DNA from: an uncultured Luminiphilus sp.
GTDB taxonomy: Bacteria; Pseudomonadota; Gammaproteobacteria; Pseudomonadales; Halieaceae
Reading direction: 5' to 3'
Length of the DNA: 40,287 nucleotides
Assembly (NCBI GenBank): GCA_938085095.1
Contig: CALKEI010000044.1
Span: 1-40,287, forward strand
Both the position numbers and the translations under genes were made by a program. Of this stretch, positions 19,880 through 23,565 are shown one piece after another; positions within the stretch are counted from its first letter, which is position 1, and each line of letters begins with the position of its first letter. The notes under the pieces were generated by a model. It searched no databases. It was given only the letters and a program-made list of their open reading frames with translations, and had not been told where the DNA came from.

Positions 19880-20755
19880 TTACGCCACCATGGCGGTACG
19901 TAACTTTTTCAACGCATTGGCTTCTAGCTGCCGGATGCGCTCCGCCGATACCTGGTACTCGGCCGCCAACTCGTGGAGCGTGGATTTATCGTCAACCAGC
20001 CAACGACGCTCGAGAATGTCTCGGCTGCGATCATCAAGGTCCGTGAGTGCCAGCCGTAGTTTAGCTGCACTGTCCTCTGCAAAGTCCTCGGCCTCAACGA
20101 GCTGACTTGGATCCGCCTGCCCCTCGGTCAAAAAGTACTGGGGTGCTTGCCAGCCATCTTCATCATCGCTGTCGGCCGGCGCGTCGAAGGCGACATCACG
20201 GCTGGCCAGACGGCCCTCCATTCTGGTGACCTCGGCCTCATCAACGCCCAAATCAGCCGCAATGGCTCGAGTCTCTTCTGCCGACAACCACCCAAGGGAT
20301 TTTTTTTGGCTCCGCAGATTAAAAAACAGCTTTCGCTGCGCCTTGGTGGTGGCGACTTTGACGATCCGCCAGTTGCGAAGAATGTACTCATGCATCTCCG
20401 CTTTAATCCAGTGCACAGCAAAAGACACCAGTCGGACACCCTTATTGGGATCGAACCGCTTTACCGCTTTCATCAAGCCGACGTTGCCTTCTTGAATCAA
20501 ATCAGCCTCTGCTAATCCGTAACCCGAATAGCTACGAGCAATGTGCACAACAAATCGAAGGTGTGCCAGCACTAGCTCTCGAGCCGAGTCGACGCATTCC
20601 TCATAGAATAAGCGCTCTGCAAGTTCACTCTCACGCTCGGCGGATAACAGGGCAATACTGCTCACGGCCTGAATATAGGCGGGCAAATTAGCGCCGGGCG
20701 CCATATTCAGCACTGCGCTGTTGGGCAGGGCGAGTGCGCGCTGTGTCTCTGTCAT
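19880..20755 (-). CDS. rpoH: Heat-shock sigma factor sigma-32 (RpoH)
   Basis: RpoH directs RNA polymerase to heat-shock promoters (chaperones, proteases). The 291-residue protein shows region 2 (LVLAHLRFVVHIARSYSGYGL, DLIQEGNVGLMKAVKRFDP, SFAVHWIKAEMHEYI), the RpoH box QRKLFFNLR that distinguishes sigma-32 from other sigma-70 members, and region 4 (LHELAAEYQVSAERIRQLEANALKKLR). The ORF track starts at 20779. A strong GGAGG sits eight bases before the ATG at 20755 and nothing comparable precedes the upstream ATG, so I chose 20755. It follows ftsX in the classic ftsY-ftsE-ftsX-rpoH order. A perfect CIRCE element 35 bases upstream points to additional repression by HrcA, layered on the usual post-translational control of sigma-32. 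Confidence 0.97.
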   Translation of the reverse strand: MTETQRALALPNSAVLNMAPGANLPAYIQAVSSIALLSAERESELAERLFYEECVDSARELVLAHLRFVVHIARSYSGYGLAEADLIQEGNVGLMKAVKRFDPNKGVRLVSFAVHWIKAEMHEYILRNWRIVKVATTKAQRKLFFNLRSQKKSLGWLSAEETRAIAADLGVDEAEVTRMEGRLASRDVAFDAPADSDDEDGWQAPQYFLTEGQADPSQLVEAEDFAEDSAAKLRLALTDLDDRSRDILERRWLVDDKSTLHELAAEYQVSAERIRQLEANALKKLRTAMVA

Positions 20756-20790
20756 GTCAATCGCCTCCACAAGGCTCATACCCGCTTATT

Positions 20791-20817
20791 TTAGCACTCT
20801 CCTCCCTAGAGTGCTAA
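20791..20817. promoter_or_regulatory. CIRCE element (HrcA operator) in the rpoH leader
   Basis: TTAGCACTC-N9-GAGTGCTAA matches the CIRCE consensus at all 18 arm positions and at the exact nine-base spacing. It lies in the 90-base gap between the ftsX stop codon and the rpoH ATG at 20755, 35 bases before that ATG. On the minus strand a TAAAAT hexamer overlaps its rpoH-proximal arm and could be a -10 box. HrcA is the known repressor at CIRCE and is inactivated on heat shock when GroEL is titrated. hrcA is not in this window. Confidence 0.92.
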
Positions 20818-20845
20818 ACCTTGAAAAATACCGTTTTTCAGTGGG

Positions 20846-21799
20846 TTAGCGAGTTTCGAGCTGCCTGAAATAGCGCTCTGCTGCCGCCCAGGAGGCTAGC
20901 CAGCCGATAATGGCACCAGACAAAATGAGCGCCGATGGGTATTTGAAGCCCGGACTCTGTAGCTGTCCGGGACTGTCATACAGCAGGAACAGGGCATTGA
21001 CCGGCCCTGTAAGCCAGACGCTCAGAGCCCACAGCATGAAGGCTGCCAGCACCCCACCCCCAGCGCCAAAATACAGTCCGGTATACAAAAAAGGTCGGCG
21101 CACAAAGGCAGGGGAGCCACCGATCACACGCACCACAAGGATTTCTTCCCTGCGGGCATCGATCGCCAGATGGAGCGTGTTGGCCAGCGCCAGAATGGCA
21201 CCCAATATCATGGCTCCGCCCAGAGCGAGCACCCAGCGTTCACCCGCCACCAGCGTCTCACCAAGGCGCGCTACCCAGCGGGTGTCTGCCACCACTCGAT
21301 TGACGTTAGGCAATGACTCAAGCTCGCCGATCAAGCGATTCAACGCTGAGTCGCTTACCGGCAACGCAGGCAGCACTCGCAGGGTGTGGGGAAGGGGATT
21401 TCGATCGAGCGACGCCAACAGTGTCGCCAGGCCTGTCTGCTCACCAAACTCCAAGAGCGCTTGTTCGCGACCCACCAGCCGCACCGTATCGACCCTCGCC
21501 CAACTCTCAATCTGACGCTGCACCGCCTCCGCACTCGTACGATTCACTTCTCTGTCCAGCATGACCGACAGCTGAGCTGAACCCGCCACATCCGGAACGA
21601 TCGGCCGAAGGTTTTCGAGGGTCAGCAATAACGCGCTGGGGACTGCCAGTGAGATCGCAACCATTAGCCAAACCAGCCCCGTCGCAACGGGCCGTTGCAA
21701 CAGCTTTCGCCAACTGTCATGAGCAGCAATCCGGTGTTGTGCTCGCCACACGGCAGCCCGGTTCCAGCGCTCTCCCGGTTGGCCTGTTGGTGAATTCAT
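20846..21799 (-). CDS. ftsX: Cell division ABC transporter permease FtsX
   Basis: FtsX is the membrane partner of FtsE at the division septum, where it activates periplasmic cell-wall hydrolases through EnvC-type proteins. The 317-residue protein has a cytoplasmic N-terminus, a first membrane helix (ATGLVWLMVAISLAVPSALLL, about 38-60) and an extracytoplasmic domain of about 110 residues. Three helices follow near the C-terminus (LALGGAMILGAILALANTLHL; LYFGAGGGVLAAFMLWALSVWL; SALILSGAIIGWLASWAAA). The ATG overlaps the ftsE stop codon by four bases, so the two are translationally coupled. It is followed by the rpoH leader containing CIRCE. Confidence 0.95.
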   Translation of the reverse strand: MNSPTGQPGERWNRAAVWRAQHRIAAHDSWRKLLQRPVATGLVWLMVAISLAVPSALLLTLENLRPIVPDVAGSAQLSVMLDREVNRTSAEAVQRQIESWARVDTVRLVGREQALLEFGEQTGLATLLASLDRNPLPHTLRVLPALPVSDSALNRLIGELESLPNVNRVVADTRWVARLGETLVAGERWVLALGGAMILGAILALANTLHLAIDARREEILVVRVIGGSPAFVRRPFLYTGLYFGAGGGVLAAFMLWALSVWLTGPVNALFLLYDSPGQLQSPGFKYPSALILSGAIIGWLASWAAAERYFRQLETR

Positions 21800-22458
21800 G
21801 GCGTCTCAGCGCCCGCAAGACGCCCCGAACTGAGCGTAATAATCCGGTGTCTAAGTTGCGATATCAGCGACAGGTCATGGGTGGCCACGAGCACCGTGAC
21901 GCCCACCTGATTGAAAGCCTCAAACAAGGCCATAATTTCTGAAGACAGCTGAGGGTCGAGATTGCCGGTAGGCTCGTCGGCAATCAGAAACTCGGGTCTT
22001 GCGACCACAGCCCTCGCAATACCAACACGCTGCTGTTCGCCCCCCGATAAAGTAGCCGGGTTAGCGTACTCTTGAGCCAACAGCCCCACTTTATCGAGCG
22101 CCGCCCGAACCCGCCGAGCGCTATCTCTCGGCGAGAATCCCGCGATCACCAGGGGCAATGCGACATTGTCATGGACACTGCGATCAAACAGTAATCGGTG
22201 ATCCTGAAAGACCACGCCGAAACGACGCCTGTAGCGAGGCACCCTGTGCGAACGAATCGCTCTCGTCAGCTCACCCTTGACGCGGATTTCGCCGCTGCTC
22301 GGTCGATCGAGCAGTAGCAAGAGTCGCAATAAAGTGCTCTTGCCCGCGCCAGAGTGGCCGGTAATAAAAGCCATCTCACCCTGATCAATAGTCAGATTGA
22401 GATGACGCAGTGCATCCAGGTCTCCGAATCGGCGGCTGACCCGCTCAAATTCAATCAC
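21796..22458 (-). CDS. ftsE: Cell division ATP-binding protein FtsE
   Basis: FtsE is the cytoplasmic ATPase of the FtsEX divisome complex. The 220-residue ABC domain has Walker [10 protein letters not shown] (about 35-43), the Q-loop VVFQDHRLL, the signature [14 protein letters not shown] (about 136) and Walker [13 protein letters not shown] (about 157), followed by the H-loop ATHDLSL. The start is GTG at 22458, with AGGG about nine bases upstream. The gene begins 12 bases after ftsY ends and overlaps ftsX. Confidence 0.97.
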
Positions 22459-22470
22459 TGTTGAGACCCT

Positions 22471-23565
22471 TTAACGCTCGTCCAGCAGTGCATTCACAAA
22501 GTCCCGCGCGGAGAAATCCCGGAGGTCTTCGGGTTGCTCGCCCACACCGATAAAGCGAATCGGCCGCTTCAACTTGTGGGCAATGGCAAACAAAACACCG
22601 CCCCTAGCGGTACCATCCAGCTTGGTCACCGCAACCCCCGAAACGCCGACCGCCTGATCAAACTCCACAGCTTGCGACACCGCGTTCTGGCCCGTTCCCG
22701 CATCCAATACCAATAACGTTTCATGGGGCACTGTGTCGTCTTGTTTGCGCATGACACGAACCACTTTGCTGAGCTCATCCATGAGGTGAGACTTATTCTG
22801 CAGCCGCCCTGCCGTATCCGCGATCAAGACATCCACACCCCTCGCCTTCGCCGCTTCTAATGCATCAAACAGCACCGATGCGCTATCTGCGCCCGAATGC
22901 TGTGCAATCACAGGCACGTCATGACGATCGCCCCACGCCTGCAGTTGCTCCACGGCAGCCGCACGGAACGTGTCGCCGGCTGCCAACATCACACTGCGGC
23001 CCTCGCGCTTGAACCGATGTGCCAACTTGCCAATGGTGGTGGTTTTGCCGGCACCGTTTACACCCACAACCAGTATCACAAAAGGCTTATGCTGATTCAG
23101 GTTGAGCGCGTGCTCCTGATCTTCTAAGAGCTCAACCAATGTCTCCTTGAGCGACGACAGCACGGACTCCTCTGCCGATAACTCCTTCCGATCAAGGCGT
23201 TGGCGCAGCGATTCAAGCACCCGCTCGGTAGCCTCAAGCCCCAGGTCAGCCATGATCAGCTGCTCCTCGAGCGCCTCCAACAACTCGGGGTCCAGCTGCT
23301 TTTTGCCCAAGACGAGGCTGGCCAACCCCTCCGTAAACTGCCCCCGGCTGCGGCTGAGTCCGCTGCGCAACCGCCCGAAGAGGGTCGCTGAGCTCTCTGG
23401 CGGTGCTGCTTTCCCCGCAGGCGCCTGCAAACCCTCATCCGCACCCGCGGTCTCGCCTTCCGCAACCACCGATGCCTGCGCACTGTCAGGCGCCTCATTG
23501 GGATGCATGCCTTTGACACCTTCAGGTTGACTGTCGGGCTTGGCGCGGCGTTTGAATAGCTTCAT
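22471..23565 (-). CDS. ftsY: Signal recognition particle receptor FtsY
   Basis: FtsY is the membrane-associated GTPase that receives SRP-ribosome complexes and passes them to the Sec translocon. The 364-residue protein has a short acidic, low-complexity A domain (about 1-65, shorter than the E. coli form of nearly 200 residues). The four-helix N domain follows, then the G domain: GVNGAGKTTTIGKLA (about 167), AAGDTFRAAAVEQL, DTAGRLQNK (about 249) and TKLDGTARGGVLF (about 311). It heads the ftsY-ftsE-ftsX operon and is divergent from rsmD over an 87-base gap. No convincing promoter is visible. Confidence 0.97.
   Translation of the reverse strand: MKLFKRRAKPDSQPEGVKGMHPNEAPDSAQASVVAEGETAGADEGLQAPAGKAAPPESSATLFGRLRSGLSRSRGQFTEGLASLVLGKKQLDPELLEALEEQLIMADLGLEATERVLESLRQRLDRKELSAEESVLSSLKETLVELLEDQEHALNLNQHKPFVILVVGVNGAGKTTTIGKLAHRFKREGRSVMLAAGDTFRAAAVEQLQAWGDRHDVPVIAQHSGADSASVLFDALEAAKARGVDVLIADTAGRLQNKSHLMDELSKVVRVMRKQDDTVPHETLLVLDAGTGQNAVSQAVEFDQAVGVSGVAVTKLDGTARGGVLFAIAHKLKRPIRFIGVGEQPEDLRDFSARDFVNALLDER

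Follow-up and report, generated by a model that had tools for sequence, protein, structure and literature searches.

The gene of the heat-shock sigma factor sigma-32 (rpoH) in an uncultured Luminiphilus sp. is preceded by a perfect CIRCE element which, judged from its sequence and setting, is very probably a working operator of the repressor HrcA and at the same time part of the rpoH core promoter. A CIRCE before rpoH is the rule in the sampled hrcA-bearing Gammaproteobacteria and nearly absent from those without hrcA. The usual description treats HrcA, the negative regulator, and sigma-32, the positive one, as running in parallel, with groESL as their single meeting point. In hrcA-bearing Gammaproteobacteria these two heat-shock control systems appear to be wired in series. 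In the following, the window denotes the whole analyzed stretch of 40,287 nucleotides.

The element TTAGCACTC-TCCTCCCTA-GAGTGCTAA occupies positions 20,791–20,817 of the window, between the stop codon of ftsX and rpoH, both of which are encoded on the minus strand; since CIRCE is palindromic, its assignment to the minus strand follows the gene served. Both arms of nine bases match the consensus without exception (0 of 18 positions deviate) and enclose a spacer of exactly nine nucleotides, so that the perfect CIRCE described in front of rpoH by the first-pass annotation stands. It is the single match with at most three mismatches in the window, and 100 dinucleotide shuffles of the window yielded none at this threshold. 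The search for further copies that had been proposed was extended to the whole draft genome (1.99 Mb in 213 contigs, 80% complete), where it is again the sole CIRCE with up to three mismatches.

The downstream gene encodes a sigma-32 of 291 amino acids (positions 19,880–20,755, minus strand; TIGR02392 with 383.7 bits against a cut-off of 323.1). Among named genomes this RpoH is closest to those of Luminiphilus and other Halieaceae, which most likely places the DNA with marine gammaproteobacteria of the OM60/NOR5 type within the Pseudomonadales. In the list of open reading frames rpoH starts at the ATG at 20,779, only 11 nt from the CIRCE, but this longest-frame start is probably wrong: the ATG at 20,755 has a ribosome binding site (GGAGG, minus strand, 20,764–20,768) 8 nt upstream and fits the relatives, in which rpoH homology begins around this codon. 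Counted from it, the distance of 35 bases between CIRCE and start codon given earlier is correct. One in-frame stop each was seen in the rpoH matches of two genomes (L009/G004 and L032/G031); sequencing error, a match that ran past the true start or a real defect may account for them.

On the other side of the element lies ftsX (20,846–21,799, minus strand), followed further upstream of rpoH by ftsE (21,796–22,458) and ftsY (22,471–23,565). The place of the CIRCE directly after ftsX would also suit an element that belongs to the ftsYEX genes upstream, as their transcription terminator or a spacer, but it has no T run, the terminator scan returned no such site, and the same element precedes groESL in relatives; we give this reading next to no credence.

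Conservation within the genus is strict and limited to the arms. All 23 rpoH upstream regions compared carry 18 of 18 arm bases, and the arm columns have a mean identity of 1.00, against 0.59 in the spacer, 0.53 in the upstream flank and 0.58 in the downstream flank. Among close relatives the arms are thus fixed and the sequence between and around them varies, the pattern for which an alignment had been proposed as a check. Whole-genome searches of 31 genomes of the genus, in which a few scattered weak matches with three mismatches were set aside, found at most two CIRCE copies in each, which precede rpoH and groESL respectively, and hrcA was detected in 29 of these 31. The genome of the window itself likewise contains the regulator gene for which a search had been advised: hrcA is present in full length and followed by grpE (TIGR00331 with 313.5 bits, cut-off 197.2), and its product matches the solved homologue 1stz with an E value of 1.2e-20. 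Also rpoE was found there. The groEL gene is missing from this 80% complete draft, and we infer the groESL CIRCE of this particular genome from its relatives. As a separate observation, the subclade of the window has an inverted repeat, CTGAAAAA-CGGTA-TTTTTCAG, upstream of the CIRCE (about 20,823–20,843 in the window), which is perfect in two subclade loci (L005 and L006) and imperfect in the window.

Beyond the genus, CIRCE elements precede rpoH for instance in Halioglobus, Haliea, Parahaliea (with one mismatch), Ketobacter, Alcanivorax, Woeseiaceae and the K189A clade. Among 106 genomes surveyed from the Pseudomonadales, of which only the window's own is less than 90% complete, a site with at most three mismatches was present in 32 of 33 genomes with hrcA (19 of them perfect) versus 3 of 73 without hrcA (Fisher p = 1.6e-22, for genomes that are related and not mutually independent). 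Shuffled rpoH upstream regions never came as close as three mismatches to CIRCE. A sample of the other Gammaproteobacteria with one genome per family gave the same picture, with 48 of 53 hrcA-bearing genomes (29 perfect) versus 3 of 20 others (p = 1.3e-9). Co-loss with hrcA is also visible within two families (f23 and f30), whose hrcA-bearing members keep the site and whose members without hrcA have lost it. Six hrcA-bearing genomes, five from the class sample and one from the order sample, lack a CIRCE in the 400 nt next to rpoH; a site farther upstream was considered for them and none was found within 1.5 kb. Conversely, six genomes without detected hrcA retain a site at up to three mismatches, for which draft gaps or recent loss of hrcA would account; throughout, the assignment of genomes as lacking hrcA depends on drafts. 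In one genome with undetected hrcA (G086, locus L238) a CIRCE-like sequence with a spacer of ten nucleotides, TTAGCACTC-N10-GAGTGCTAA, was seen before rpoH.

The position of the element relative to the putative promoter is equally regular. A scan of the minus strand found TTAGCA-18-TAAAAT with an extended TG, which agrees with the sigma-70-type extended -10 pattern TGnTAnnnT. The -35-like hexamer TTAGCA (20,812–20,817, minus strand; elsewhere TTGGCA is the commonest variant) is supplied by the left arm of the CIRCE, and the extended -10 TGC-TAAAAT (20,788–20,796, minus strand) by its right arm together with the next three bases AAT. The general form of this -10 at the rpoH sites is TGC-TAANNT. 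Its last T, the third base after the CIRCE, occurs in 82 of 86 rpoH sites and in 0 of 19 groESL sites, where the base is always A. From this arrangement the start of rpoH transcription is predicted near position 20,781.

A second promoter signature overlaps the first one. The GAAC core of a sigma-E -35 box is found 14, 15 or 16 nt before the CIRCE in 65 of 86 rpoH sites (the background from neighbouring DNA is about 0.05 expected per sequence), and the corresponding -10 (TCTNA) straddles left arm and spacer, with TNA at the left spacer triplet in 48 of 86 sites versus 8 of 86 at the mirrored right triplet. The reference within the genus is rpoE, most of whose readable promoters have the form GGAACTT-N16-TC. 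In most of the 86 related rpoH sites GGAACTT is followed after about 16 nt by a -10 of the TC type, whereas the window has GGTATTT at this place (20,826–20,832, minus strand). Because the -35 before rpoH became GGTATTT or GGTAATT in the subclade of the window, the sigma-E half of the promoter may be weak or lost there, with the sigma-70-type half intact. Loss of sigma-E itself was considered as the cause of this degeneration and rejected, as the subclade possesses rpoE with GGAACTT in its own promoter. On these motifs the CIRCE is embedded in a predicted sigma-70-type promoter and, in most relatives, in a predicted sigma-E promoter as well.

An inverted repeat with arms of 9 bp that are able to pair might act in the RNA instead, as a leader hairpin or thermometer that governs stability or translation of the rpoH mRNA, and rpoH of E. 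coli is indeed controlled by mRNA structure. However, the predicted transcription start lies downstream of the CIRCE, so the leader would exclude the element; the fold of a 131-nt RNA is no better than that of shuffled sequences (z 0.07); the letters of the arms are fixed and not merely their pairing; and the site tracks the presence of hrcA. We consider such an RNA element very unlikely.

Parts of the promoter outlast hrcA. Where the gene is absent, the extended -10 TGCTANNNT, scored as present if at least five of six key bases agree, occurs with the proper spacing to the sigma-E -35 in 18 genomes, compared with 2.0 expected and a maximum of 8 in 50 shuffled sets. Some Pseudomonas still have GGAACTT...CAGTGCTAGACT before rpoH. 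The symmetry of the operator decays without hrcA and the promoter parts remain, which is what a symmetry maintained for HrcA would lead one to expect. The presence of promoter elements within the arms and their survival when hrcA is lost could also mean that -35 and -10 are palindromic by chance and that HrcA has no part in it. This is highly improbable in our opinion, since a promoter has no need of a palindrome with 18 invariant positions, the arms recur at groESL without the T of the -10, and the intact operator is nearly confined to genomes with hrcA. An HrcA operator built into the promoter continues to be the preferred explanation.

The groESL loci of the genus differ from rpoH in what follows the CIRCE. 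In all 19 loci a sigma-32 promoter of the form CTTGAA-N-CCCCA succeeds it within a few bases, and this motif is found downstream of 0 of 86 rpoH sites. A CIRCE before hrcA-grpE was looked for as well, and none with up to four mismatches was present in any hrcA locus of the genus that was read. Instead, 27 of 28 loci scanned have a conserved sigma-32-like site upstream of grpE, close to where hrcA ends.

The proposed mechanism starts from what the sequences show, namely the sites with their geometry and conservation, the presence of hrcA and rpoE, and the co-loss with hrcA; from these we infer that HrcA binds and represses, that GroEL feeds back on it and that the promoters are used. HrcA dimers on the CIRCE would cover both the -35 and the extended -10 of the sigma-70-type promoter, as well as the -10 of the overlapping sigma-E promoter in the majority of relatives, and RNA polymerase would thereby be kept off rpoH. 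The HrcA of Bacillus is known to lose its activity once unfolded protein occupies GroEL; in the same way HrcA would become inactive here and rpoH transcription would be released. HrcA would thus hold rpoH and groESL repressed, sigma-32 would drive groESL and grpE, and GroEL would re-arm HrcA and close the circuit. A coherent feed-forward loop can be suggested because HrcA sites lie at rpoH and groESL and a sigma-32 promoter at groESL; its GroEL step is adopted from established work on HrcA in other bacteria.

The significance of this arrangement lies in its breadth, as most of the hrcA-bearing genomes sampled from an entire class have a repressor site on the sigma factor gene. It predicts that in the carriers the rate of sigma-32 synthesis is set through transcription by the occupancy of GroEL and that the scheme known from E. 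coli is a derived state after loss of hrcA. On balance, and with some reserve, we favour the view that in the ancestral gammaproteobacterial wiring HrcA and GroEL controlled the synthesis of sigma-32, by way of an operator merged with a sigma-E and a sigma-70 promoter that overlap. Lineages such as Enterobacterales and Pseudomonas would then be derived, with repeated loss of hrcA, promoter remnants in some of them and rpoH control moved elsewhere (RNA structure, sigma-E).

In the literature covered, mainly titles and abstracts, a CIRCE before rpoH was found only for Geobacter sulfurreducens, and the class-wide pattern is unreported there; part of the prediction may already be contained in Permina and Gelfand (2003), who surveyed beta-, gamma- and epsilon-proteobacteria. 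For Geobacter sulfurreducens Rodionov et al. 2004 (PMC545781, Table 8) used comparative genomics to predict a perfect CIRCE, which lies at -51 relative to the start of rpoH. This is one deltaproteobacterium, in which CIRCE is also given before hrcA-grpE-dnaKJ, and the passages of PMC545781 considered contain neither a promoter overlap nor a class-wide pattern. The same study (Rodionov et al. 2004, PMC545781) named groESL as the one target of HrcA that is constant.

With the HrcA/CIRCE regulon of Bacillus subtilis and others the system shares the operator TTAGCACTC-N9-GAGTGCTAA, the position of hrcA beside grpE and the target groESL. It differs in that rpoH is also a predicted target, with an operator that overlaps the putative core promoter, and in that hrcA-grpE of the genus is without CIRCE. 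The rpoH promoters of E. coli comprise the sigma-E-dependent P3 and nearby sigma-70 promoters. In the sequence compared, E. coli resembles the present loci by TGAACTT-N16-TCTGA upstream of rpoH and after ftsX, but hrcA was not found in it and the rpoH upstream region compared contains no CIRCE. The dual control of groESL by CIRCE and sigma-32 known from Proteobacteria is likewise seen in all 19 groESL loci of the genus, whereas here the sigma factor gene itself is predicted to be an HrcA target as well.
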